Below are positions 506-63,938 of a stretch of DNA of 64,000 nt, piece after piece. Position 1 is the stretch's first letter; each line of letters begins with the position of its first letter. The position numbers and the translations under genes are program-made. The notes beneath the pieces are model-generated. The model was not told the DNA's origin. It did no database searches and worked only from the letters and a program-made list of their open reading frames with translations. This DNA comes from Xiphias gladius (taxonomy: Eukaryota > Chordata > Actinopteri > Istiophoriformes > Xiphiidae), in the NCBI RefSeq assembly GCF_016859285.1, contig NC_053409.1, positions 21,833,976-21,897,975 of the forward strand, in the 5' to 3' direction.

Positions 506-28536
<28,031 letters not shown>

Positions 28537-32280: not shown

Positions 32281-32700
32281 TTGATGTAGTCACCTCAGCG
32301 CCGTATCCACCACCACAAAAAAAAAAGAAAAGGTAAAAATAATAATTTTAAAAAAGAAACAGAAAGAGGAACAAAAAAAGTCTATTGTCTTTATGGGTTT
32401 TTAATTCCGTTGGGATTTATTCGGAGTGTTTCTTTATAGCTTTAACACATTCTCTGCTGTTAAAAAGTCACTCGTTTTGTTAGCTTGTTTTGCTGCCGGC
32501 TAGCGAGGTCCTCGGGAATGGCTATCATCGTCATGTGACATCCAGGCCGTCAGGTGGCATGTGCGTGTGTGCGGTGTTTTCGTGATGGGTTCGTCGTTGT
32601 TCGGTGCCGCCCAACAGTCCAGCCCGTAAACCTGGCGTTATTTCAATGAGCGAACGTGTGTTAGCAGAGTTTTTTTTTCTTCTCCCTGTCACCCCTCCAG

Positions 32701-32722
32701 GAATCCCGCGGAAGGCGAGGAA
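32701..32722 (+). other. lgmn: lgmn second-exon 5'UTR and start context
   Basis: The exon begins after CCCCTCCAG. The ATG at 32723 (GGAAATGC) is the first in this exon and opens the signal peptide, which decides the start. A first exon of about 50 bp (about 32280-32332) with an A-rich end is inferred. Confidence 0.65.
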
Positions 32723-35700
32723 ATGCAACAGTCAGCCCTCCTCGCACTGCTCGGCCTGAGTCTCGGGCTGGTGAACGCATTCCCCTCCCAGCAGCAGGAC
32801 AATGGGAAACGCTGGGTGGTTATCGTAGCCGGCTCCAACGGCTGGTACAACTACAGACACCAGGTGAGAGGTGTCAACCAGGGAAATCACACGAAACCGC
32901 TGCCGCATGGTCACTTTGCCAAGTGCAAACTGTTCATGACTCGTTTGTTTTCTCTTCTAATCCGCATTGGTTTAGATAAGATCTACTTTAGCCACAGATA
33001 AGTCACTGCCCCTTCACAGTGCGCGCTTTCCGGGAGTTTTTCCACCCTCTTAAAAGGCTCGGAGGGTGACTGTGATAATATGCTGCTGACCTCTACTCAT
33101 TGCTCTCCCTCTCTCTCAGGCCGATGCTTGCCATGCATACCAGATTGTCCACAGGAATGGCATCCCAGATGAGCAGATAGTGGTTATGATGTACGATGAT
33201 TTGGCCCAGAATGAAGAGTGAGTTGGCATCTTTGTATTTCTGAGGCAGATCTTTGTGATAGAGTGACTTCTTCTTTCCCCTGCAGTGTTTAAAAACAATC
33301 CCCATTGGACTTTACAGCGCTACAATGATGGTTCTTGACCTTCGTTCTTCCCTATTTGCAAATGTTTATATAAATGTCAGCCTTTGTTACATTGAACACA
33401 CTTATTATATGTGATAAATATGTGACAAAATCTTCAGTTTTGTAAATGCTGTATTGCATTTTTAAGTTCAGTTGAGTGTGATTACATGATTTTAATCTCA
33501 AACTTTCGGGCTGTTTGAAATGTCAAAAAGTTAGTGGAAAAAAACGCCCATCGCATCTACACAGAATCCAAGGTGACGTCTTCAGATGGCTTGTTCTGTC
33601 TGATCAAAAGTCCAAAACTCGAAGGTATTCAGTTTGTCATTATACATGACAAGGATGAAAAGCAATTCCTGCCATTTGAGAAGCAGGAACCTGAGAATGT
33701 GTGGAAAAATTATCTTTCTTTTTTTTTTTTTTTCATATAATTGCCATTTATTTCTCTGCCCTTCGACTACTCAATTAATCGACTAATCATTTCAGCTCCA
33801 ACTTTGGTCATTATGTACAAGCCATGTTACTGTTCAAACTTTCCACACTGCCCTAATAGCACTGAGCGCTAAAGTTGGTGAATAACGAATATGAGCTTTT
33901 CATAGGGTCAGGGCATGAAAATTATGAGTTGAAATGATTTCACTATTTCGAATAAGTTCTGATCATCTGTAAGGAGAGGTGAAATGCATAGTTTAAATTA
34001 ATTAGCTGATAAACAATTAATTAATCTGTAACTGCTTTGACAATAGTTTGAGGAGAAATGTCAGTTATTTATTGGTTCCAGCTCTATTGACAGAAAATAT
34101 AAGTTAACTAATTTGATACCATAATTTTGTGGTTCCAGCTTCTCAATTTTGAGTTTGGCTTCTTAAATGGGAGAGTTTGCTACTATTCCTTGTCTGACAC
34201 CGTAGTAAACTGAATGACATGGCTTTTGGACCGTTGGACGAACAAAAAAGACATCTGAAGACGTCACCTTGGGCCCTAACAGACTGTGATGGGCATTTTC
34301 TCCGTATTTTCATTGACCAGACCATCAGTCGAGAAAATAATTGGCAGATAAAACCGAAATGAAAATAATAATAATAATTTGCAGTCATGTCTGTGAGGCA
34401 CAGAGTAATCGCACACTCATGCTGGCATTTCCGGCGTCGCTGTGGGTTGTCGGCCCCGTGTCGGACATCGCCAGAGAAGCAGCGGTATTCAGAGCAGGCA
34501 GCACTGTAAACAGGCGCGTTATGGAGACCCACTGAGACGAGTCACAAGGAACTAATTTTAGTGCCCCTTCAGGACTTTGAAATGGAGTTATATTACTGAC
34601 ATGACGGCTGGATAGAGGCGTATTAGTTTAAGCACATCCACCAGTTTCAGTCAGAGTTAATGCTAATGTATATTAGGGCTTAAATTTCATCAAGATAACC
34701 TGTTCAGATGTATGAAAAAGTTAATCGTCTGTCTGGATCAAGGCTCCAGTGGAATTTAGAGGCAAAAGAAGAGTAAAGTGGAAATTCAGCTTGCTAATAA
34801 CACACAGCTCCAAATGCTTAGATAGGGCTGCAACTAACAGTTATTTTCATAATTGATTAATCTGTCGATTTAGTTTTTGTTTTTTTGTTTTTCCGATTAC
34901 TCAGTAGTGGGGAAAAGCCAATCAATAGTTCTCAGAACCTAAGCTGGCGGCTTCAAATGTCTTGTGTTGTCCGACAAACAGTCTGTGTCTTTCAGCACCA
35001 CAGTCAACATAAGCTTTTAGTGACGGCCAGCTTTATGATATGATTTTGATAATATGTGCTAAGCAAAAGAAATGTAAACATATAAACTTTTTAGATGGGA
35101 ACCGACGAAAGCTTTTTCAGGCTGCAGGTTAATTTAATTGTAATAACCAATGACAGGTTGAGGAATATGGTTATTCTGCTGTTACTAACTGTCTACACAC
35201 TTCAGTATTGACCGGCGTATCACGTCTTAAAATACCTTGACATAATGTAGGTCAAGTTTTGGAGAAAAGTAATGCAAGATTGATTGTTTATCCGTATATC
35301 CGTATCGCACTCATGTGCGGTTGACATCTTTTATCAGAATGTGGTTGTGGTTAATAAATAACTTGTTTTTATAACATTGCAAACAATAGTGCAGCTGACA
35401 TAGTTTCTCATAAAGACTGTACGAATCAATGTCCACTGAAACTGATAGCAGAAGCTATTTCCAGTTTTCCCCGATTTCCTGCAAAATATTGATTTCTGCG
35501 ACGGAGATGATGTTCACTCTGTAACACAGCAGTCTTGTATATGATAAGGGCCTTGTTGTTGAGAGTTACAGAAAGTGATTCTGCGGTGAAAGGGGGAAAA
35601 ACCTGAAGTGCTGTGGAGCTTCTGGCTGTGTCACCTGACCGGTGAATCATGCTGTTCATTCTGTTTCCCTGTCATCACGTCGAAGTGTTTTGTCAGCCGT

Positions 35701-38700: not shown

Positions 38701-41700
38701 CAATTTAATCAAACAAGATATAACATTTTAAAAGTCAACTAACTCTCTTCGGGAAAGCAAATAAGCAGATTTTCCAAGACATCAAACTACCGCTTTCATC
38801 TGTTACACTTCAACTGAGCTGCTTTTATGGCTTAGACATTGATGTTACCTAAGCTGTTTTCAGTGTTTACAGACAAACTACAATTCAGTGCCTACTGGGG
38901 TTACTTAGGAACCTAAACATGAAACAAAATTTAAGATCCTTTCAGCGATTACAGTGCAAAAGAGACCTCAAGCCCCTTCAGCGCTTCTTCAGTTGACACT
39001 TCAGCTGCTTTCCCACAATATTTTTGCATGCAACGATAAAACAATTTAGACATTCAAACCTGTGCAGACTGTTCACACATACAATTTATTGCGTAAGTGA
39101 GCAATTTCAGGAAGCAAGCAAATTCGATTTTTCTTCAGAAAGTGTAGTTTCTTGTAGTTTAGCTGTAATTTCATACAATTTATTGGTAATTTTACCACTC
39201 TGTTGTTGACTGATATTAAACAGTACAATAGTTACTCTTACTATATGTAGTCCAATAAAGGTTTCTTTGCTGTTCCAAACACCTGGTGTCAAATAGGCAG
39301 GAAAAGGAAGTGGTGAGTGTTTCCATACAGCAGCAACAGAATAAGACTTGGCTAGTTTGCATACGCATGTAATAGCACCTGTGGGCCTACAATACTGTGT
39401 GCGTGTATATATGAGCATCACAAAACAGAAACTTGAACTTCATCAGTGAAAAACAAAACAAAGTACCAGCCGCAGTGTTTTAATTTGTAATCCACGAGCA
39501 ATGTACAGTTTTACAGATTATTATTCCATCTTTTTGGAAATGTTTTGTTGCTTAGAACAGTTCTGTCTGTGATGTTGTTTTTACTTATTTATTTTCTGAC
39601 ATCGTGCTTCCAGGAGGACCTGACAAAAGAAACTTTGCTGCGGCAGTTCAAGATTGTGAAGAGCCACACAAACACCAGCCACGTCCAGCAGTACGGGAAC
39701 AAGGTGAAGGAAAAGAATGAACACTGTTTGTTTGTTTGGGGGGGGGGGGGGCTGTAGAGTTAACTACCTATTACGAACCAAAAGAATTTGTCTCTTCTAA
39801 CCAAGAAACATTTTGGGGGATGTACGGCTTTATTTTAAATGTCAATGACTGGCATAATAGTGATGGGGAAGGAGAACTGTGTGAAAAAATGTTTGTTTCC
39901 TGCCCTTATTCAATTACTCATCTTGAGTTTCTTATTTTCTGTATAGACAATGGCCCACATGAAAGTGATAGCATTTCAGGGTAACCACAAAGCAGACAGC
40001 CCCCCCACCCCTCCGATGACCCTGCAGCCAGTTACGAATCTGGATCTGACCCCGAGCCCTGACGTTCCTCTGGCCATCCTCAAGAGGAAGCTGATGGCCT
40101 CCAATGATATCAGTGTTGCAAGGGGCCTGCTGATGGAGATCAGTGCCCACCTCAAGGTGAGGAGTGACAAAGCGCACTTTAAGTGGGTCATGCAAATCAG
40201 ATTTATCGCGAAGATTTAACTGCACGAACTAAACATTTGACGTGACAGTTGGTCACGTTACAGATTTCTAACGGCGTGTGAACCTGCGTGTGTTCAGGTC
40301 AGGGAGATGCTGGCTGAGACTATGCACCAAGTGGTCGAGAGGGTGACCGGTAATAAGCTCAAGGCCGAGGAGGTTCTCAACGACAGAGCCGAACTGTCCC
40401 AGCATCAGTGCTACAAGGCTGCAGTCGACCACTACAAACACAACTGCTTCAACTGGCACAAAACTGAGGTGCACAGCTGCTTTCTCCTCATTGAAATCAG
40501 ACTGGGGATGTCCTGTCCAAATTCAGAAAGTGTCGGTGGTTGACGCAACGGTTGATTAGTCAGTTTTTCTAGGATTCATATGTAGCTAATGGTTTAAACT
40601 TACTCGCGTGCCGAGTGTCTGGTTCTGCTTTTGAAAAAGGGTAAACACCAGATCTGTTTCCCATTCTATTTCTATGCTATTCATAAGTAGGTATCAGATT
40701 TACATTCATTTGCCTTTTTGCATTCAGCTGAAACTAATCCAGAGATTAGTGTCAGTATGCAGTAAGAGCAGAATAAACTTGAATTCTTACATCATTAATT
40801 TATTAAAACAATATTCTAAAGTGTTATTCCTTAACACATTAGGCCTCATGTAAAATAATTTTTGTATTTTTAATCTTGTTTCAACCTGATGAATGGCACC
40901 TGCTCATGAGGGGGCTGGACGTCCACAAATGTCACAATTAGCGTAACCAACGCCCACAAATAGCAATAAAAAGGCTGCCCATTCTGCTTTATAGGCCTTG
41001 TGCTCAGCAGCCATAGACTCCATAGTATGGAGAAGCACATTTGTTACTGATAACATTAACGATGAATCTGTTCTCTTCAAGTGTCCCAGTGAGACATGAC
41101 AGTGAGCCAGCGTGAACAATCCCAGGACCCTGAAACTGAAACATATTTAAACTCCAAATTCGTTCAAGTTAAAGCATTATAATTCTTCAAACTAGGAATT
41201 TTTCTTCCCTCTGTGGAGAGAGGCAGACTGTCTGCCTGTAACTCGTACGACATGTTCTGACAACTTGCTGATTTTGTTCTTTACACATGAGAAAAAATAA
41301 TAAATGCCACGAATTTGCTTAAATCACTCATACGTGGCACCTAAGAACAGATCTGTTAGTATGAAAACGTTCATGAGGCCAATTGCTACCCACGATGATC
41401 ATGTGAGATCAGCGATGCAGGAGAAAGAGAAATATGAGAGAAACGTAGACAGTAAGTATGCCCTGGTCGATCAGAAAACAGTCAGAATTGGACAATAATC
41501 ATTATGAATTCATTGTCTCTCAAGTCCCTTAAATTTCATGTAAGTGCAACTATATAACTGATACGTGGCTTTGGTCGAGCTAAAATGATTAGGCAAAAAC
41601 ATCAGACCCTCTCTGGTTCCAGCGGCTCCAGTATAAAATCTTTTTTTTCTGATTTATATCACTGTAAACTGAGTATCTTTGGGGATTAGACTGTTGGTGC

Positions 41701-46362: not shown

Positions 46363-49300
46363 ATGGGATCCAGAGCGTCATCGTTACTCAGAGAAGAGGA
46401 AATTGAAGAAATTAAGAAGGAGACCGGCTGTAAGTTGAGCTCAGACTAATTCCCGTGATGCAGATGAAGACTCTAAACTATCAGCCACCGTACTTAAGCA
46501 TTAACGCCATTCAATTCAGTTAGCCTGTTACTGAAAGCCTCTCTTTTCCTATGTTAAACCCCAAAATCACTTACCAATAGGAAGTTGCGCCAGTGGCGGT
46601 GATTGTGTGACTTACATTGCTGCTGAGCCTTTTCTCTCAGCTCCGTAACTGGACAAGTAGTGTAGGAAAATAACAGAATACATTTACTCAATTGCCACAC
46701 TTAAGTACAATTTTGGGGTATTTGTACTTTATTTGATTATTTCCATTTTCTGCTACTTTGTACTCCGCTACCTTTTAGAGGGAAATTTTGTACTCTTTAC
46801 TGTTATACATTTATATGACCGATATGCACGTATCTGTCTGCAGTTTATTTAGCCTAATAAAATGAATGCAGTCTAATACAACAGTCCTGCAGTAAATCCC
46901 ACCTCCACGGAAGTAATTTGAAGGATGTAATTTGTGTTCCTGATTATACAGAGAGGTTTTTCCTGTAATTTAGCCAATGCTCAGTGATATAAATGGGTTG
47001 GACAAAAGAACAGAAAAACCTGTCCATTTAACGCAGTACCATTCAGCAGCACCACAAAATGCAGCCTCCCGAAATGACCATAAAGTTGAACCAACACCTC
47101 TCTAAAACAGTTTGGATAAAAACTGAACATTATAACCTTCAATTATGGCTGGATGTACTGCAGGACTGTTGTTTTAGACTTCATGGTTGGGAACCACTGA
47201 ACTACCCTACCTAAGTGTATATAAAGTAGTTAAAACTGGCTCAACATCGAGCAGCTACAACAGTAAAATACTGCTTAAACACAGATGAATCAATAACAAC
47301 AATCTAATGATGTTATATATAATAATATATCAGTCACAAGGACCTTTTTAAGTTAGATAGTTTAAGAACTGTTTTTGAATGGAGTATTTTTACATTAATA
47401 TATTTGTAGTGTTACTTAACTAAAAAGATCTGAGTACGTCTTCCACCACTGTGGGCAATAATTCAAACATACAACCCCTGAGGAAGACTTTTTAAGATGA
47501 CTATTTAGGTGGAAAGTTATTTTTCCGGAAGCAGTCTATATCTCTTGTCTTCTGGTCATTTGGTAGTAAAAACGTATGTCTCTTTGTTATCTTACCCACA
47601 GTCTCCCACAGTCAGATAACTCGCCTGTACAGTCGCTTCACCAGTCTGGATAAAGGTGAAAACGGCACTCTCAGGTAAGCAATAATATAACCACCATTGT
47701 GTGAATAAACCCATTAAACACCAACTAGTAGATGTGGCTGATAAGTTAGGTTCCTTTGCCCAGCAATTTGGCAGGTGACCAGCCATTTACTGTTATACAG
47801 GTCAGATTGGCTAGGTAAATGACAAGTGATTGAATTTTGCAAAAGCCTCACTTTTTTGGGGACTGCTTGTAGTGGTAAACTTATTACATTGAAGACAAAT
47901 ATGAAAGATATTACAATGGATTTGATGACCTTGATTGTAAATAGATTCTACTAATTTGGAGTTGGGCATTTTATGTTGCACTTTAAAACAAATTTTACTC
48001 TGTGAATGCACTTCAAGGTTGAAGACAACCTGTTGTCGTTTGATAAAGGCTGTCAGCCACAGTTTTGCAAAATATCATTCATTTTCAAATGGGTTTCACA
48101 GGAAGTCTTATTGAACTCAGTATTCAGTGAGACCTCAGGTTGATAATTCTCTGGTGCTTGATTAACTTCTAGTTAACTCTTGTCACAGTCTGGGCAGAAC
48201 AAGCAATAGGTGAAGAAATTGGTAATCATTAAAGCTGCTAAAACTTTAGATTGAAACTTAGTTTTACCCAGCCCTTTGATTCGGCAAAGAGGATTCATTT
48301 GCAGACCAGCCTCCCAAGGATAAAATAAAATAAAATAATCTATATACAGTTTTGTAGGTTTCACAGAACTCACTCTTTTGAGAGACGTTGTGTTTACACA
48401 TAACAGCTTCTTGGCTTCACTTGTTCTTGCTCCATTGCTTTCAGTCACAGCACACAGTCAGGTACAGCGTCATATATGTCCAAGGTGACTTTCTTATTAT
48501 CCATCAGAGGTACAACAGTCAAATTTAACATATGTCTAGGCAGGCTAACTTCCAGTCCCACTGATGGACTAAAAAACTTTTTCAAATTTCACGATTTATT
48601 CATGTGATATATTTTCCCAGACAAAAAATAATTTTAAAAATCAAAATGATTTATTTGACATCCTTATTTCCTCTTTTCACCTTTTCCTGTTCTCATATTT
48701 GCAGTCAAATCAAGTCTGATTTTAGATTATAATGAAGACATGGCCTGTGTCAGTTCTTTTTAAAGTAGATGACAGTCGAAGATCTGTGGTAAATTGTCAT
48801 TTTTAATTTTTTTAATGGTTAAACTTTTGATGTCCTGCGTTAAAATATGTTATGTTGCATTCTCACTTCCATTATATCTCCTGATGTCTGCAGTCGAGAA
48901 GATTTCCAGAGGATCCCAGAGTTGGCCATCAATCCTCTGGGAGACCGAATAATCAATGCATTCTTTCCTGAGGGGTGAGTTGTCCCGGTTATTGGTCTGC
49001 AGTGTTTGAGCGATTTTGTTTTGCGCAGGTTGTGTTTGAGTCACAGACACCACAAAGCTGAACCAGATCATCATGCTTTTTAGTCGTGGCTCCTTGACCG
49101 CAGACTTAAGAAGCTCGGTCTTTTCTGCCAATTCTCCGTAGAAAAAAAAAAAATCAACTTGGGTTTTTGTGCACCACAGGTTCTGTATGTATATTTGGCA
49201 GTTGTTTGGCTGTTTTATCAGTCTGGAAGTTGAAAACCAGATGTTCGCAGATGTATCATTAAATTCCCAAAAAGTCACATGTGTAGGCGTCGTAATTTTA

Positions 49301-51484
49301 GCCATGGCTTTTAATGGTTTCGGATGGGTTCCTGTTGCTCTGGTTTAGGCTTGTTTGCTTTAGAAGAGCTTGAGAATAGAAGTGGAGGGTGTTTGACTTG
49401 GTAAAATGGTGTTAGGTTACGACTTGTTTGAGTTTTCATTGTGTTTCCCACACAGCCAACGTTTATTTCAAGTATGAAGGTAATCTGAGCAAGGCAACAC
49501 ACAAGAATCAGTGTCAGTTTATTTTGTGTTTGTTTGAGATCCAAAAGGTTGGATTAAATTCTTTATCTCATGGGTTTTTTTGTTTTTGTTTGTTTGTTTT
49601 TTGTCTGTGATTTTTAGAGAGGACCAGGTAAACTTCAGGGGCTTCATGCGGACCTTGGCTCACTTCAGACCGATTGAGGACAATGAGAAGAACAAGAACT
49701 CGACTGCCAGCGAGCCACTCAACAGCAGGACAAACAAACTGCTCTGTGAGTGTGGAGCTCGGTCACACAGGCGTGTCCGGGTGGAGTTTATGACCAATAT
49801 CATGAAAATTCCCAGGATTACATAATATGCGCTTTACTGTGTCTTTTACGACTTCCATATTTTTATATTTCTCCAGTTGCTTTCCGCCTGTATGACCTTG
49901 ACAGAGATGACAAAATTTCTCGGGATGAGCTGCTGCAGGTGGGTGGATGGTTTTTTTCATGTAAATAAGACTCCGAGTCACAGTACGGTTTGTGGAAACG
50001 GCTGCTTCACACGATAACTCAATCGGCCAGATGGTGAATAATTACATTTTAAAGACATCTTTTCTTTTCTTCATGGAAATCCATTATTACCTCTGAAAAT
50101 ATTTGCTATTCATTTTTTTTCTTAACAAGGGAACAAATGCTACTGTTTAATATCTATTTTAAGGTGCTCCACAGAGAGAGGGATTTTGATGTCAATGAGA
50201 GGACTTTGCCCTTGTGGTGATTATGATGTGACATTGCTCCTTAACTACAGGTTGATTTTTCCCAGACAGTCTAATATCCTGTATTTTGTCATCCTTTGCA
50301 CTCCCTCCGTGTTGTTTGTTGTCCCTCCGGGAAGCCCTCTCGGTTTCAGTGACATTGTGTGACCTGTAATTGCTATAAGCTCGGGGTTAAATGACTCAGA
50401 CAGATCCCTTGTTTTGCGCAAAACACTTCTGTGTCGCCTTCTCCGTGTGATGCACCAGCCCGTAAGGCTCGAAACATGTAACTCAAAGTAGTGTTTGTCT
50501 GCCTGTTTTTTTTTCAGGAAATATGCGTTCACTGTTATTTATCATCATGTAATTCTTACAGTAAAGTGTGGCTGCGGTTTGCTTGGCATTTAACTGAAAT
50601 ACCTACAAATTATCTCGGGCAGGTCTTAAATACCTGTAGTATTAACATTGTTTTCAAAACAGTTCACCATATTGTTTGGGCAACCATCATGATTAGTATT
50701 TAATCTTTACCATGAGATGTTTTCACTGGAATTCCTTAACCATAAAAGGACTTTTTGTTCATTCTTTACAGGTCTTGAGGATGATGGTTGGCGTAAACAT
50801 TTCAGATGAACAGCTTGGCAGCATTGCTGACCGGACCATCCAGGAGGCTGACACGAACGGGGATAACTCCATTTCCTTCAATGAATTCATCAAGGCAAGT
50901 TTGGTGGTCAGAGGGCATCTGTCATCTTACATATACAACTATCTTGTGTACTTACTTATGCTACTGTATTCTTTACTTTGCGGTCTTTGACCTAAACTAG
51001 TAACTACATAAAAAATGCTATGTGAAGTGCGCTCTTCATGAAAGCTCTGACCATGTACCACTACCATGAGCACATGCTGTACATTTTATGCATTAGAAGC
51101 CCTAGTGGACACCTGGAAAGTCCACAGAAATGGAAAATAATATATTCCCCACAGGACATATTTTACAAAGTACAGAATGGCTTTCAATGAGAACCTGTAT
51201 CCTTGTTTATTTACTATAAAAGCAAGATACACAGGATGAATACCTCTAAGTTAATGCAAGCCCTGGTTTTTCAGGGGGACATATTTCATGTTTTGTGTGT
51301 TTGAGTTAATAGAAATACATTGTTTTTGTGTGTGACATTGCAACGCTGTGCCTATTAAACATTACAGGACCACAACATAAAAGTGTTATTTTTAGTAGCT
51401 GAACTTGATCTTTTTTGATCCTTTTCTCAGGTCTTGGAGAAGGTGGATGTGGAGCAGAAAATGAGCATCCGGTTCCTGCACTGA
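46363..51484 (+). CDS. chp1: calcineurin B homologous protein 1, complete, 7 exons
   Basis: EF-hand calcium-binding protein that is an obligate cofactor of plasma-membrane Na+/H+ exchangers and also acts in membrane traffic. Coding exons: 46363-46429, 47602-47674, 48894-48974, 49618-49745, 49877-49938, 50772-50894, 51431-51484. They total 588 nt and encode 195 aa, the usual CHP1 length. MGSRAS at the N-terminus is an N-myristoylation signal, so the ATG at 46363 is the start. Canonical EF-hand loops are [12 protein letters not shown] (123-134) and [12 protein letters not shown] (164-175). The two N-terminal EF-hands lack key acidic residues, as is normal for the family. The protein ends MSIRFLH. 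The intron after 50894 has a GC donor (AAG|GCAAGT). A GC-rich 5'UTR lies upstream of 46363. Confidence 0.97.
46640..47452. mobile_element. non-autonomous DNA transposon (hAT-like MITE) in chp1 intron 1
   Basis: The right end reads GATCTGAGTACGTCTTCCAC followed by CACTG, so the terminus in reverse complement is CAGTGGTGGAAGACGTACTC. The left part has the familiar TACTTAAGTACAATTTTG-like run and TGCTACTTTGTACTCCGCTA. The left terminus is diverged. I recognise this as a widespread teleost element with hAT-type CAGTGGTGG ends. It has no transposase. Confidence 0.6.
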
Positions 51485-53260: not shown

Positions 53261-54289
53261 TTAAACCAATTTCAATACTTACCCATTACCTAGCACTATG
53301 GTACTTAAGTAGACCTATTAATAGTAATACCTTTAGCTACACTACACTTCTGAGGAAGATGATGTACTTAATACTCTGTAAGAAGACTACTACAGTGCAA
53401 ACTGACTAATTAGAAATACTGAATGACAAGGAAGACGTAGGAGAAAATACAAATGAAATATGAAATAACTTGTTTTTCAATACTCTACCCACAGTAACTG
53501 CAGTGTTAAACAATTTAATTCATCCGTAGCAAAACGTACAGGTCTTTAAACGGTGAGGCTGGTGTAATTTGACTTTTTCTTATGTTCAACAAATCTCACG
53601 AAAAGATGGAATCCACGTTAGCCCAGTTCTGCTGCTGCTCACTAGTTGACTTCGAAAAATTAGACTTCACGTGAAAAAACAAATTAATGAAATGTGATTG
53701 AATTAGATTAGGGCTGCAACTAAGTTATTGATATTGATTTTTTTTGTACATAATAAATAATTGATTAATGGCTTTAGTCAGTAAACATTTGAAAGGTGTC
53801 AGACAAACAGTCCAACATGATAGAAATTTACGCGGAAGCAGCAAATCCTCAAATTTGAAGCGGGAAGCAGCAGAAAGTTGACACGTTTGCTTTAAGAATG
53901 ATTTTTTTTTTTTTAAAAGATGAATTTCATTGAAAAATGTATACTTAATTTCCTATTGATCAAATACTCGATTAATCGACAGGTTGCTTTGGCACTGATT
54001 TGGAGCAGTTAGCTGGACCACCGAGCATAACGTATAATTGAGTAATACCTCTTTAGCTAACGTTCGTAAAAATCGCGATTTACTTTTTTGATAATTAAGT
54101 GGGTGTTGGTATTAGTTCTTATATATTTTTACTTAGATTTTAACCCCTTTGCTTAAATTAGATCGATTATTTCAGGGATTTCTATTGACTCTGGTCATGC
54201 TTGTGTTCCCTTGGCGGTTAATTAGTTTGATCGACGTCCGCTTGGAGAACAGAAAAAAAAAAAAAAAACACATCCGGGGCGGGCTCCAA
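53261..54289. other. chp1-cyrano intergenic region
   Basis: About 1 kb, holding a family B repeat at 53706-53995 (AGGGCTGCAACTAAGTTATT). No other feature was seen up to the cyrano promoter. Confidence 0.55.
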
Positions 54290-54400
54290 CTTTGATTGAC
54301 AGGTCACCGGCACAATCCTACTCTTCCGTTGGCTCATAGTAGCAGAGCGAAAATGGCGTAGAGCGGAGGGTGTGTGGCGAAGGGGACGAGGGGGACGAGG
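54290..54400 (+). promoter_or_regulatory. putative cyrano promoter with YY1-like site
   Basis: TATA-less sequence. AAAATGGCG at 54350-54358 is a good YY1 core, which often sits just downstream of the start site. GTTGGCTC is nearby, and a C/T-rich (CTCTC)n stretch follows from 54410. The exact start site cannot be read from sequence. Confidence 0.5.
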
Positions 54401-55562
54401 GGACCTTCTTCTCTTCTCTCCTCTCCTCTCCTCTCCGGCGTGTAGGGGGTGAGAGAGGGGGTCCCGGAGGTATTCGGTTTGTTCTTTTCTAAATGTGTCC
54501 CCAGCGCGGCGCGGTCCCTCTTTACAGAATAAATCCGGTACACGTCCAGTTTGGGAGACCTAAATGTGTCACCGTAGAAGAAGACTCCCCCCCCCCCCGG
54601 CTTTTGTTTACCATTGTGTGCAGCTGCAGCTCAAACCACAGCCGAAATGTCCCTGCATCATTTCGGATCAACTCACACCAAGGTCAGTGTTTCTTTACTT
54701 GCCAGCTTTAACTTATAGATTCCCCTGCACGTTTTTCTTATTTTGGAAATTGGCAAGGTAGTTTAAAGGGTGAATACGTCCAGAAATTGAATGTGGATTG
54801 TGTTAATTCAGTCATTTTTGGGTAGTAAAAGTCAGTTTCCCTAAAACAAGGCAACTCTCTCTCTAAGCCGGAAGCAAGGCATCAAAGACCTGAATTTATT
54901 ATGTCATTAGGTCACATCTTGTGTATATGAATGTCCCCATATTCCAGTTAAATCACAGTGAGCTCTGTCAAATTGTCTGAGGAGTTATTTGCTTTAATCA
55001 GCGTCTGTGGAGCAGGTCCAGGGTTCGTTTATAGTAGAGATGAAACAGTTATTCAATTAATCAATCAATCAGTTGGTGAATAGAAAAATAATTGACAACA
55101 ATTCGGATAACGGCTTTGAAGTCATTTTTCAAGCAAATACCCCAAACCTTCCCCAGCTTCAGCTCTCCAGTAACTATGGGGCTTTTTTCTCCGTTTTATC
55201 GGTCGAAAAGGGACATTTGAAGACGTCACTTTGGGCTTTAGGAAATCTCAACAGGCGTTTTTCACTATTTTCAGACATTTTAAAGACCAAAGTTTAATCA
55301 GTTAGTTGGAAAAATTATAGGAAGATGCCTGGTTGACATCCTCAACATACCGTGGTCCCGTGTCTCAGCTGCTCAGTTTTCATCATCCCCGCCTGGAATT
55401 TTCATATTTACAATCTGCAAACAGAACATTGAAATAATATGGAAGTAACGTGTGCATTTTTATCCTAGGGGTGGGTTTTCCAGTCAATGCAGTCGGGAAA
55501 CCAGCTGAAGCCCAAACTGGAGGAACATCTCCCTTCAGATCAGCCCCGGCGCCATTGACGGA

Positions 55563-55590
55563 TCGCCCCCACCACCACCACCACCACCCA
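55563..55590 (+). repeat. (CCA)n run in cyrano exon 2
   Basis: C-rich CCACCACCACC tract near the first candidate donor of exon 2. A longer C run lies at about 54588-54598 in exon 1. Confidence 0.8.
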
Positions 55591-57142
55591 GACCTGCGGT
55601 AAAGAACTAAGAGTCATCGAGAAGATGACCTCTTTTGGGGTTTTGGGACACGGGTGTCCTCCTTCCTGCTGTCGCTGGGACATTGGCCCTCTTGCCTCCA
55701 CAGCATCCCCTCTTGTCCTGGCCCCATTTCTGCCACATGACCATCAATGAGGACATCTTCCAAGATTTTGGGCCAGTCTGACTTCCATCACGCGCGCACA
55801 CCGACTATGTCTAGATGTAGCCTAACGCTGGCTGAAAAGCCACGGGGTTTCTGCACTCGCTCTATTTGTCTGAAAGTCTCCATGATTTGGGCATTTTCAG
55901 TCAGGTTTGGGTTAGATTCTTTTCTGGCTGCATGTAAACGTAGTAACTGATTTTTCTTGCGTAAGTACAAAAAAAATCCCCACTTTCTTTGGGATAGGAT
56001 CAAAGCTGTTTGATAATGAACAAATTAACTGCTCCTGTTTTCTAGGGAGGCAAGTAAAGACACAAGATACTGTAGCAAAGATCAAGGCCTGTGATTAAAT
56101 TAGATGCAAAGGGTGTTTAATTTTTTTTTTTTTTTTTTTGCACTACCTCATTGCCATAACAAGTCCAGAAAGGGAGTGTGATCAGTACAAGTAGCTTAAC
56201 GGTTGTCCAGCGCCACAGCAGTTTTATATATTGTTCCGGGAGGAATTTTGGTTTTAGTTTTAGAGGCTCAATAGGTGGGGATGTCAGCCCACAAGCACAC
56301 GATGCACATTTCACTTTCAGTTCAGCCGTTTTGACAGAAACACTGACTCACTCAAACTGTGGTCTCCTATGCATTTGTTGTAAAGGAAGGTCACGATATG
56401 GAATTTTTAATCCATGCTCTCATTTTTGCATTTCGGATTTGTAGTGCTCTCCTTTGTCAAGTCTGCAGGTTTATTCACAAATTGCAGGTAGAGACAGAAT
56501 AGCTAATGTTTCCCTTGTGACTTAATGTTTGAGATCCCAAACATTTGGCAACTTAAGGTATTTAAAGTTCGTCTTTTATTACAAAAGTCTAGTCCAGTTT
56601 TCCTCCCTTAAAATACTCTTCATTTGGTCTGTCTTCCCCCCTTTCCCCTGCGTATAGTCTAATTTGATCCATTTCATACTTTAACATGTTCCCATTATTG
56701 TTGTTTTCCCCCCCTTAACATTAGCTTTCATTTGTCCATGTTCTATAACCATATGAGATGTATAAACAGACCTTTTTTACATGCTGCCAGTAGAGACAGA
56801 ATTGACCGTTTGATTGATTTTGTTCAATGAAACATGAGACAAAATAATCCAAAAATTTAGTAAAAACATCATTTTTTTTGTCTCTGACCTGCTGTTTCGA
56901 TGTGTCCAATAAGTTTAGAGACACCAGTGCTGAAATATCAGCTTTAATTGTCCTTGTATTTGTCCTTATCTGAAGGAAACCCTGATCTCATTTTTCAGTT
57001 TTCTTAGATAACGTTTATATGATTTTAAACCAAAAAAAAAAAAAAAAAGACATCTACCGGGATTCGTGCAATATTTGATCTTAACTGTCATGTTGTTGAC
57101 CAAACTGTATATTGTATAAACAAGTGACAAGTTGTTTGAAAG

Positions 57143-57166
57143 CAACAAAATCACCAATGTCTTCCA
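57143..57166 (+). promoter_or_regulatory. extended miR-7 pairing site (target-directed miRNA degradation site)
   Basis: The sequence is CAACAAAATCAC, then four bases CAAT, then GTCTTCCA. GTCTTCCA is a full 8-mer seed match to miR-7 (seed GGAAGAC), and CAACAAAATCAC pairs with the miR-7 3' half (GUGAUUUUGUUG). Only the central bulge is unpaired. This seed-plus-3'-pairing layout with a short central mismatch is the known cyrano architecture. Confidence 0.93.
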
Positions 57167-58132
57167 TTAAGATATGTATAGACTCGTGCATTAGCTTATT
57201 TAGCGGGACTGTGGTACCAACATTATAGTAGCCATGCATGACCAGTAGTGATGCTTGCTTCATAAAGAATAGTGAAATCGATTTCTAGCCGGAGCTCAAA
57301 ACTGTGGAAACCATTTTCAGTAAAATTAAAGGGTAGTAGGCTGACGTACTCGACCTTTTAAATACACCGCGTCTAGATACAGCTTTGCCCTAAAATCTTA
57401 GTGCAAGATCTCCTCTTTATTCCGCATCTAGGTTGTGTAATGAAAATACAAATGAAATACGAACCAATCAGGATATGCAGTTATAAGTATTGATTCAAGT
57501 CCTTTTACAAAGGCGTATATGCTCAGCATAAGTTAGTGCTTTCTTTCAGACCTGCTGCATATTCTTAGGACTCTTGTCTTTTTTTGAAAGAAAAAAAAAA
57601 AAAAAAAAGCTTAAGAAATGTCCAAAAGGTACTCGTGCACTCTCAAGCATCAAAAGAATTTGGTAGTTATTAAGTGACAGCAAAAAAGCTCCCAAGAAAC
57701 AAGTCTCAGACGTGACAATGATAGAAACCTTCAGAGAGATGTTATATAAACAGTAGTACTTTAATCCTGGATTCGGATCTAATTGGTAGGGATCCGACGT
57801 GGTGTATGAGTCCTAGAATTAAGATCCCACCATGACATTGCATTGTACATAATACCTCATAATAGTTTTGGGATTCAGAGCGTTATATTTTAATCCATAA
57901 AATTGTATTTGATTAGAGTTTTAGAAGCAATAATCTACAATAATGCATGAGTTTAGTGCCAGGGTGTAAGTGTTAAAAGGATTCTGTGACGTCACGTGGA
58001 AAGGATCCCGCCCCCCCCTTTTACGCTTATAGTAGCTAGCTATCCATTGGTCACTTTTCTGGGGAGTCGTATAATATTTGGCTTTAGGATACAGTGTTAC
58101 TTATGAAGGTTTAGGATACTTCCTGCAGAACA

Positions 58133-58134
<2 letters not shown>

Positions 58135-58169
<35 letters not shown>
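58135..58169. repeat. (GT)n microsatellite in the cyrano last exon
   Basis: Perfect GT tract of about 35 bp within the putative lncRNA 3' exon. Confidence 0.97.
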
Positions 58170-58172
<3 letters not shown>

Positions 58173-59130
58173 ACTGCTGTAGCATGATGGTATTACATTG
58201 ACAAATTTAACTAAATGCTTCTATTTTTCAGAGAGTATTTTCCCTGCCTTGTATCCAATCAGTACATGGGAGATGCTTTGAAATTCAATTCTCGTAGCAT
58301 TTTACATCCTCAGAACCCACCCCTTCCTTTAGAAATGTAGACTTTCAGTAACTCTGTGGCTGCAAAGTACTTACTGAACGAACTTGACACTTGTTTGAAA
58401 AGCACTTTCTCTCTATGTACTGACTTGCACCATCATCATCACCATCCTGTCTTGAATACCGTGTTCTAAAAACCCTGTAATGCTCTTTGTGGGGATTTAT
58501 AATCACAATTTATAAGCAAGTAGGCATCTAGCAACATGAATATATGGGTTTAAAAAAATATGCATGACTTAGTAAAATAATGAATGATTTGTATTGCATG
58601 CAATAATCCAACTTTGTAATGTGAATGAGTATAATTAGGATATTGAAATGTTCATATGAGATGTTCTGTGACAACTTGGGGACGGTCCTCTGACACTACA
58701 GCAAGCATGTTGAAGTAGTTTTGATCATCAGTTGTGGTTTTTACAGACTAAACAGCACCAAAAAAGATGTAACGGAGAGTAGTTTTAAGTGTTCCTGCTC
58801 TCACTCTCTGTTGTGTCAAACAAGACCATGGCAGTACTGCCACAGTGCAGCTGAAAAAACACTGATCAACCTTTGTTCCCATGAAGAAAAAAACAACAAC
58901 AAAACGAACAAAAAACACAAAAGGAAAAAAAAAAAAACATGCACACAAGCCTAGGTAAGAAGATTAATGACATTACTTTGTTGATCAACTTTTCCACTGA
59001 GGTGGGTTGTGTAGAAACTATGCACTCTAGACAGAGGAAGTGGGCATGCTTATTATGTGTGAGCCTCTTGTCTGGTTTTGTATTTACTAAAAAAAAATAT
59101 ATATATATGGATCTGTATCAGAAATTCAGC

Positions 59131-59136
59131 AATAAA
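59131..59136 (+). terminator. cyrano poly(A) signal AATAAA
   Basis: AATAAA in TTCAGCAATAAAATGC, followed by a GT-rich stretch (GGGTGTTTGTTTAGTGG) within 40 bp, as expected for a cleavage site. Confidence 0.65.
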
Positions 59137-59150
59137 ATGCAGCATGGTGC

Positions 59151-59995
59151 CAATTGGATGGCTGGGTGTTTGTTTAGTGGAGTTACAAAGAGAATAACAC
59201 AATGTACATTATCATTTTTGAAACAAGAGCAAAAGTCTATTGTTACATGCTAGAAAACAAAATATTGAGTAAAAGCAGAGCATATACATTATTCCTACAT
59301 CCTTACCACTGGTGGGGCACAAAATAATGTAATTTGTTCTGAAGGTGGGGACAGAATATCAGCGTAACTGAATCGAAATCTCACAGGAACACTTCCAACA
59401 ATTTGGGAAATACAATCATGCACTTTCTTTCTGAGAGTTAGCGAAGATGTCTTTATGCGAAATTATAAAAACACTACCATGTGTCCAAAGTACAGCTGAG
59501 GCCTACACACGTTAACTTAACAGTTTTGGAGGCATCCATGAACTGAGGTGTTGGAAAATGTGAGTTTAAACCTGTTGGTGGCGCTAGATTAAGTCACGGG
59601 GATCTCGTGAGTCTGGGGACCATTAATGTCTAAATGTACTTAATGTTACGTCAGTCTGTTCAAAATCTGTCAAGATATTTCCAGATGGACGTACTGGACC
59701 AAATGGGCAAAACATTACCAGCATTCCTTCACAGATTTGGCAAAGTTGAAAAAGGATTGATGGAGGTCTTAAAATATTTGACAGTATCTGGAATCAGAAA
59801 TCTCTGGTTGTATTACTACTGTCCATATTTCATATTAACTGTAGACCCATTTTGACATAAATCGCTCGTGTGGAATTGTCCACTATAAGCATGTACTTCA
59901 ATTTAAATACAAGCCGGAATCTTTAAAAAAAAAAAAAAAAACATAAATAAGAGATTAGTGTTCCAGCTGCAGGGACATATACAGAGACATCAATG
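59151..59995. other. gap between the convergent cyrano and oip5 3' ends
   Basis: About 850 bp made largely of repeats: a foldback-element fragment at 59398-59465 and a family A copy at about 59560-59850. There is an A-run at 59924-59940. No coding exon was found. Confidence 0.55.
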
Positions 59996-60155: not shown

Positions 60156-62802
60156 CTACTTATCCAATACACAGGTAACACTCCTGTCGGCCAGTCTGCT
60201 CTTAATGCGTGACATCAGATCCAACTGCTCTTCAAAGTGCTGTCTCATCTGCCCACAAAAGGAAAGAACAGATTTGGTTTTCTTGGTAGAAAGCAATTGG
60301 TTTTGTTTTTGTTTGTTTTTTTTAACAAACTCATCATTTGTTCAGTTAAACTTTACAAAATCAAGGCAACTAGATTTGCTGGAATGCAGAACCGGATGGG
60401 TTTTAACCCAAGATCTCTGGCGCCACCCACAGGCCAGAAGGTCGCACTTAATTATCTGTTTATTATCTACAATTGTTTAATTAGTCGTTCGAAAATGGCC
60501 AGGTCATGTCAAGTAAATTAACTTATAGAAAACGTAAGTGCTTATCATGTGTCACTAAAGTACAGATAGTACTCAGATTATGATGTGAAAATAAGAAAAA
60601 AGAATGAACTGTTGCAATTGTACATGCAGGTGTTAATCATGATCGTCAGAATAAACACAGTATTAGCTTTTGTTGTCTCACCTCATTCATGTTTTCTCTG
60701 AGGGGCTTCAGATCAAATGTGAGTTTGGATGCCTTCACCATTGAGCTGCTGTTGAGGATGTAACTGCACAGAAAAATAAGAAAAGGGAGTTTCGATAGAT
60801 CACTCAATGCACCCTACAATGACTTCATATTATCACTATCCGAAGAATGAATGAAAGGAAATCAGTCACATTTAAAAAAAAAAACAAACAAAAAAAACTT
60901 ATCGATTGTGTTTCATCTCTAAGCTCAGCTTTAAAAAAAAATTCAATTCATGCAATAGAAAACACTCACAAGGCACTTGTATATTTTAGCCTCTCCAGAC
61001 AGCAGTAAACCTGTACACAAAAAGTCAATATGCCTGTGTGCTCAGCAGAAGCGGCAGGGCTTACCAACTGATGTTTGCTTTGTAGAGGAGAAAGAGGGAG
61101 CGAATCGTGGCCAAACATGACGGAGCTGAGTGAATAACTTTGCCCACGGCGCAGCGGCAGCCACGACATTTTAGAGAACTGTAGATGCTGTAGAAGCAGG
61201 AGCAGTGACAACAAATAGGTCACTGACAGAAACCTTTCAGCCATGAGCGTGCAACAAACCGACCGGGAACACGTCCCCTAATGACAGTCAATAACAATTG
61301 GGTGACGGCGAAAGGATAGCGGCTTGCTCATAAAAACGTTTTGCGAAATTGTCAAAAACCAAAAACTCCACTGCTGCATGCACTCACCAATTACCCATTT
61401 CGCCTTTATGTCCTGACTCCATCGCATCACTGATGACCACATCACTGGTTACTCCTGAAGAGAGACAAAGCAGCAATGTCAGCATGTGTGCATATCAAGT
61501 ACTGTAGGGCTGGGACAAATAATATACGTAGCAATAATAACAATACAGAATGATATATTCTCATATCACACTGTTATGGATACACTACCACTGATGCCAT
61601 CAAATACCTCTGTTTTATTAAATGTATCACCAATTTGTATTTTTAAATATTTTGTCATGCAGCAGGCTTTCCTCATCCATGCATATATTGTGATACATTA
61701 TTGTAAAACTAGCGTGCAAAATCTAGCAGATTTCATATATTTTGTGATTAATAAGTGAACAGTAGCCCTGCAAAACACAAATTAAAGAACATGCTAGGAA
61801 GTAAATTAGCCCACGTTAATTCAAAATAACATTTAATTATAATAATATCCACAACAAACTTTAATTATATAGCACCTTTTTAAAATGTCAGTGTGAAAAT
61901 AAAATTAACAAATCAGCACCGTTTAAATAAAATCCAGCAAAAACAAATCAGCAGAACCCAATTACAATTCACATAAAGTAAAACAATATCATAAAACATT
62001 ACCAAATGATAGCACTATTCACAACTATTTTATTTGTTTATATATACACAGACATACACATGCATATATACATATACACATACACACACACATATACACA
62101 CATACACACTCATACATATACACACACACATGGGCGAAGTATTTTTTTTTTGCATTGCTGTCAACTGCCTCATAAGGTCTTGGACAGCAGACAGTTTGCT
62201 CAATTTTCTTAGAGACCACTTAGGTGTTAGAAAACTAGGTCATGACAACTAACTACCTAACTAACTAACTAAACTCCATCACTGAGGGAAGACCGTGAGA
62301 TGTGGTGAAGAGGTCCAGAAAAAGCTTATAGGTGGACCTTGATTTTGTCTGCATCTGTTAAATTATTTAACATTCTGTTCTGTGAAATGCCACTTTTCTC
62401 TATTTTCTTAATTTCTAAAAAAAAAAAAAAAAAATTAATGTATTTCGCGAAGTATTGTGTTTTGGATCTCAGGGCCACCATAAACCCAACTATCACTATG
62501 CTAAACTCAGGAGACACAACACAGGTACATTTACCAACATTAGCGGAGTTCTTAATAAGTAAAACACGCAAACAACTGTTGTACTATTTTCTGACTCGAC
62601 AATAATCGGTGAGAGATGAGTTGAACTTACTCAGACACACGATGGAGTCCATACGTTCGATCTCCCCACAGACGCCGAGGGAGTCCGCCAGGACAGTGTT
62701 GCATTGCGCGCAATGGAAAGTCATCTGCTGCCCGTGTACCGCCTCCGCGGCCAGTTTTCCATCGTCGATCCGTTGCATTAAGAGGCTATCGTCATATTCC
62801 AT
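60156..62802 (-). CDS. oip5: Opa-interacting protein 5 / Mis18-beta, complete, 5 exons
   Basis: Subunit of the Mis18 complex that licenses centromeres for new CENP-A deposition after mitosis. Coding exons, 5' to 3' on the minus strand: 62802-62631, 61454-61388, 61178-61065, 60763-60682, 60248-60156. They total 528 nt and encode 175 aa, shorter than human (about 229) because the N-terminal extension is short. The Mis18/Yippee-like zinc fold is marked by CAQC (31-34) and CRGC (84-87). GKVIHSAP and the stretch from KANISC to NSSSMVKAS match the family. The C-terminal ENMNEMRQHFEEQLDLMSR looks like the Mis18 coiled coil. All introns are GT-AG. The ATG (ACCAACATGG) has a good Kozak context. The gene is head-to-head with nusap1 and tail-to-tail with cyrano. 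Confidence 0.93.
62034..62131. repeat. (AC/AT)n-rich tract in oip5 intron 1
   Basis: Imperfect TATACACA/CATACACA tract. It creates spurious Tyr/Thr/His open frames. Confidence 0.85.
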
Positions 62803-63302: not shown

Positions 63303-63938
63303 ATGGATTTGGACTCCATGAAATATGCAGAGCTGCGAAGCCTCGCCAAGGAGCTCGGGATTAAAGTAACCGGGAAGGTAACGGAATTGCACTTTTTCAA
63401 CGGACCTAGCAGTAGTTGGATGTTATTTTGAACGGTAGCTTGTCAGGCTTGAGTAACGTTAACGGTAACTGTAAGCTAATGATCGTAGTTGTATGTAATT
63501 GGTAAGAATATACTCAATTAAACTGATTATTTTTTCCCCCCCTTGTTTGTTCGAAAACAGGCTGATAAACTCCTGAAAACTATCAAGCAGCATTACCAAC
63601 AAGAAAAGAACAAGGAGGAGGAAGAGCAGGTAACTTACTCCTGGCCAATGATTCTATCTTGTTGCAAGAACAGTCTTAAGCAGTGGCTTTTTTTTCAAGT
63701 GAATATCTTGTTTGTTTCTCAGGGACAAGACAAGGATGCAGCTGCTGTCCAAGAAGACGAAAATGCAGGACAAGAGAGTGCTCAGGCGAGGAAAGAGGAG
63801 ACTTGCAAGGAAGAAGCTTCCAGCACCGCCGTGTTTGTGAACACACGTCGAGGCAAAGGAAACGGTACCAAGAGAAAGATCTCTGATGCTGCGCCAGAGA
63901 CCGAGGGTGGTGCTAAGTTACCTGCAAGTGTTGCACAG
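63303..63938 (+). CDS. nusap1: nucleolar and spindle-associated protein 1, 5' part (3 exons)
   Basis: Microtubule-binding and bundling protein of the mitotic spindle. Coding exons in the window: 63303-63377, 63561-63629, 63723-63938, all phase 0 and 120 residues in total; the gene continues to the right. Residues about 5-32 form the SAP motif (YAELRSLAKELGIKVTGK, then ADKLLKTI). It is followed by a Lys/Glu-rich, low-complexity region with VFVNTRRGKGNGTKRK, as in other NUSAP1 proteins. The ATG is the first in the transcript side of the bidirectional promoter. The open frame continuing past 63938 is intron. Confidence 0.93.

Follow-up and report, generated by a model that had tools for sequence, protein, structure and literature searches.

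The 64,000-nucleotide window of Xiphias gladius DNA analysed here (the whole stretch, read on both strands) very probably contains the orthologue of the vertebrate lncRNA gene cyrano (oip5-as1), lying on the plus strand between chp1 and oip5. The assignment is based on the pairing layout of an extended miR-7 site, the order of the neighbouring genes and a set of ordered short elements, the last being compared with a published element map and not by direct alignment. Cyrano has a conserved block of about 67 nt that can be aligned between human and zebrafish. As in Cyrano/OIP5-AS1, the candidate gene is located beside oip5 on the opposite strand and has an extended miR-7 site and a 5' two-codon open reading frame (ORF). 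In addition, the two agree in how the miR-25/92, Pumilio, Rbfox, miR-153 and poly(A)/miR-137 elements are ordered and spaced. Both the gene and its mechanism are known, and the locus is a clear copy and not a new gene. Biologically, it is ordinary.

The extended miR-7 site occupies positions 57143-57166 of the plus strand. It is composed of a 3'-pairing block, CAACAAAATCAC (57143-57154), a loop of four bases (57155-57158) and a match to the seed 8-mer, GTCTTCCA (57159-57166), so that the two blocks and the four-base spacer of the preliminary description are present exactly where it had placed them. Its further claim that the blocks pair with the seed and the 3' half of miR-7 was borne out base by base, using a miR-7 sequence that occurs in published papers. 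Positions 1-8 and 11-22 of miR-7 formed Watson-Crick pairs with the site, and positions 9-10 were unpaired, facing the four target bases of the loop. The pairing can be extended to 57141, with U23 of miR-7 forming a wobble with G57142 and U24, which exists only in the 24-nt form, forming an A-U pair with A57141.

The duplex of the 23-nt miR-7 with this site had an energy of -28.9 kcal/mol in RNAduplex, compared to -35.8 kcal/mol for a perfect complement. When the window was scanned on both strands with RNAduplex (32-nt windows, step of 4), the next-best separate places reached only -20.1 kcal/mol on the plus strand and -18.8 kcal/mol on the minus strand. The seed match was not unusually open in local folding, with an unpaired probability of 0.028 against a regional median of 0.030. 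The full site pattern showed a single exact match in the 64-kb window and none in 100 dinucleotide-preserving shuffles, whereas the seed 8-mer alone was found twice against a mean of 2.76 expected, which is chance level. Only the additional pairing with the 3' half of miR-7, and not the seed match, rises above chance. Rfam gave no match at gathering score across the whole window, and the letters of the site, searched as text in several spellings, were not found in the searched literature. The exact 24-mer of the site had no match in prokaryote contigs or in virus contigs, as expected, because these collections consist of prokaryotes and viruses.

The location of the site between chp1 and oip5, as originally proposed, was confirmed, with chp1 on the plus strand, oip5 on the minus strand and nusap1 on the plus strand further on. 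The chp1 coding region (46363-51484, plus strand) lies upstream of the site and has seven exons encoding 195 aa. Over residues 1-195, its model matched PDB chain 2e30 (Calcium-binding protein p22), with an E-value of 2.7e-113 and 176 of 195 residues identical, and the same match list continued with PDB chains that bear the name Calcineurin B homologous protein 1. The last chp1 intron seemingly uses a GC donor (AAG/GCAAGT after 50894; window positions 50772-51484), yielding the 195-aa protein. The one model found with GT donors throughout, which had 198 aa and thus three extra residues, was set aside for the GC-donor model.

Downstream of the site, the oip5 coding region (60156-62802, minus strand) was modelled with five exons and 178 aa. 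Thirty-six exon models passed the filter and the top-ranked one had 186 aa, but the 178-aa model was preferred because of its better donors. This model, the only one so searched in Pfam, showed a Yippee-Mis18 domain with an E-value of 5.3e-24; exon 1, searched with phmmer against the PDB, gave only a RecR match (E-value of 0.33). Beyond oip5, the first three coding exons of nusap1 are found at 63303-63938 on the plus strand, and a SAP domain was detected in the first 120 residues (E-value of 4.7e-07). The names oip5 and nusap1 follow from these domain matches together with the human gene order. Genes are more compactly spaced here than at the human locus, which suggests a fish. In zebrafish, the neighbours of cyrano are tmem39b and oip5 (PMC6347452).

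The region upstream of chp1 was also surveyed by domain searches covering 20 of the 192 listed ORFs. Two plus-strand ORFs at 23865-24926 matched Pecanex_C with E-values of 1.2e-22 and 2.6e-42, and a pecanex-family gene is therefore placed upstream of chp1. A 607-aa ORF at 658-2481 had no Pfam match and may or may not be part of this pecanex-like gene. Between this pecanex-like gene and chp1 there may be a legumain gene, to judge from weak matches at 32630-32998 and 40241-40540, one to Peptidase C13 (E-value of 4.7e-05) and one to the legumain prodomain (E-value of 5.4e-05, which is under the cut-off).

Ross et al. compared Cyrano across 18 vertebrates including seven fishes in 2021, and nine Cyrano elements were described as conserved in all vertebrates studied except shark (PMC7798263). 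We used this published element map as the identity test, in which eight of the nine elements were identifiable and compared. Seven of the eight were exact in the window, the eighth (the miR-25/92 9-mer) agreed at 8 of 9 bases, and the published order was kept; the two miR-7 halves were counted as exact by pairing, as their letters are not printed in the available passages of PMC7798263. All of the remaining elements were located on the plus strand. The conserved 5' AUGGCG with its two-codon ORF (Met-Ala-stop), ATGGCGTAG, is at 54353-54361, and the miR-25/92 element, with its 8-mer GTGCAATA intact, is at 57066-57073. The Pumilio-type element TGTATAG (57175-57181) lies 9 nt downstream of the miR-7 site, start to end, followed by the Rbfox-type element TGCATGA (57235-57241). 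Near the 3' end, the miR-153 element CTATGCA (59018-59024) precedes the combined poly(A) signal and miR-137 element, GCAATAAA (59129-59136). The gap between the miR-25/92 element and the miR-7 site was 69 nt compared to about 60 nt in the published map, that between the Pumilio and Rbfox elements was 53 nt compared to about 55 nt, and that between the miR-153 and poly(A) elements was 104 nt compared to about 100 nt (PMC7798263).

Some differences from published Cyrano were also observed. The published miR-25/92 9-mer, UGUGCAAUA, is replaced here by CGTGCAATA at 57065, in which C takes the place of the first base (U). By the layout of the miR-25/92 8-mer, the changed base at 57065 sits outside the seed match proper, which hints that the first base of the 9-mer is dispensable. 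The context of the 5' ORF matched the TISU consensus at 9 of 12 positions, a score that was equalled twice elsewhere in 53.5-56 kb. By comparison, a perfect TISU match was reported for the 5' Cyrano ORF and the miR-25/92 9-mer was reported in all 18 species (PMC7798263). Furthermore, 54001-59300 contained four copies of WGCATGA and one of the full Pumilio consensus, below the published averages of 9.8 and 3.2, respectively (PMC7798263).

The match to the element map was examined with controls whose counts are flattered, because the spacing limits and the use of the 8-mer in place of the 9-mer were chosen after the motifs had been seen: among 20,000 dinucleotide flank shuffles each, 1 passed the miR-25/92 test, 161 passed with the Pumilio element alone, 0 passed with Pumilio plus Rbfox, 8 passed the miR-153 plus poly(A) test and 43 passed the 5' ORF test, and when the motif letters were scrambled, 192 of the 20,000 resulting sets succeeded in a single test out of four and no set in two. 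The spacings in the published map do not depend on the limits chosen here. The Pumilio-Rbfox, miR-153-poly(A) and miR-25/92-Pumilio combinations and the 5' ORF were each found only at these places when both strands of the window were scanned. Conservation beyond chance seed matching, which had been set beforehand as one point on which the cyrano call could fail, was found through the element map, order and spacing, and not through alignment. The altered base of the miR-25/92 9-mer and the imperfect TISU context would also be compatible with a chance or decayed miR-7-like sequence that has no transcript. However, the absence of the site pattern from all 100 shuffles, the gene order and the ordered elements jointly argue against such an origin, which we consider to have almost no probability.

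A tentative transcript was modelled on the plus strand. The first exon is predicted at 54300-54682, with an approximate start and the donor AAG/GTCAGT, and the last exon, which would carry the miR-7 site and end just past the poly(A) signal, at 56046-59150. The exon ends are tentative because, in the hand-made splice matrix that was used, seven acceptors in 54400-59200 outscored 56046 and three donors outscored 54682. The G+C fraction was 0.55 at 54300-54699, up from 0.32-0.35 in the sequence before it, although the segment 55500-55899 was equally rich. The longest ATG ORF in 54300-59150, read unspliced, was 72 aa. The cyrano transcript of zebrafish is 5.5 kb (PMC6633201), and 2,340 nt of exons are given for medaka cyrano (PMC7798263).

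The nearest same-strand gene upstream of the site is chp1, with its stop at 51484, and the site could in principle be part of a long chp1 3' UTR and not of a separate lncRNA. However, the stretch from the chp1 stop to the 5' Cyrano element contains six AATAAA/ATTAAA signals, and that element with its two-codon ORF is itself present at 54353. A chp1 3' UTR is accordingly very improbable as an explanation of the site. The cyrano identity given in the preliminary description is supported by the site, by the order chp1-site-oip5-nusap1 and by the published elements.

In some mouse tissues, Cyrano is responsible for the loss of more than 97-98% of miR-7, by a decay that requires ZSWIM8 (PMC10899785; PMC10620050). 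The site in the window showed the layout of a TDMD trigger, with an 8-mer seed match, an unpaired centre at positions 9-10 and 3' pairing that runs for 14 contiguous pairs with the 24-nt miR-7, compared to a minimum of 6 for such triggers. The 3' pairing energy was -16.0 kcal/mol, compared to published values of -9.6 to -17.1 kcal/mol that were possibly computed otherwise, and the 3' pairing started at miR-7 position 11, whereas 12 or 13 are described as frequent (PMC10899785). Judging from work in mouse and human, the site should direct ZSWIM8-dependent decay of miR-7. In the mechanism proposed from that work, miR-7 in Argonaute would bind the cyrano site through its seed, the long 3' pairing would pull the miR-7 3' end out of Argonaute, and the open centre of the duplex would block slicing. 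ZSWIM8 would cause ubiquitination and destruction of Argonaute, the exposed miR-7 would then be degraded, and the cyrano RNA could be used again. The level of cyrano RNA would be set by the miR-25/92, miR-153 and miR-137 sites and the Pumilio element. The miR-29b site of libra (a zebrafish lncRNA) and Nrep (a mammalian mRNA) is similar in that an RNA directs the decay of a miRNA (PMC7798263; PMC10620050), although the gene and the miRNA are different; this likeness to the cyrano locus is one of description.

By analogy with mouse, we lean towards a cyrano-directed decay of miR-7 in this animal too. Alternatively, the RNA may be cyrano with a site that, instead of triggering miR-7 decay, chiefly acts as a sponge or as an ordinary target through which miR-7 lowers cyrano. 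In zebrafish lacking the conserved region, the cyrano RNA that remained was increased in embryos and in adult tissues except brain, unlike in mouse (PMC6633201), which speaks for this alternative. The absence of overt defects in zebrafish mutants points the same way: two cyrano deletion alleles were viable and fertile with no embryonic defect, and what morpholinos had caused was non-specific (PMC6347452), although the knockdown phenotype is still cited in a review (PMC11260338). Among the papers listed by the literature search, which did not include the two original Cyrano papers, none was seen to quantify miR-7 in cyrano mutants of fish. However, the length of the 3' pairing equals the one described for Cyrano, and the open positions 9-10 correspond to the validated trigger layout. 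Moreover, the RNA would make a poor sponge because it has a single strong site and few other miR-7 seed matches (7-mers at 55756 and 56631). A role as plain target or sponge is thus unlikely, and a decay trigger remains our preferred reading of the site.

These data show that an lncRNA can be named from gene order, a single miRNA site and short ordered elements, without protein evidence or RNA data. In mouse neurons, miR-7 decay protects Cdr1as, which is described as confined to eutherians (PMC10899785), yet a non-mammal keeps every part of the trigger. If cyrano does direct miR-7 decay here, the decay would therefore have originally served another end. The question touched is the use of miR-7 decay without Cdr1as, and in that case fish could reveal its earlier purpose.
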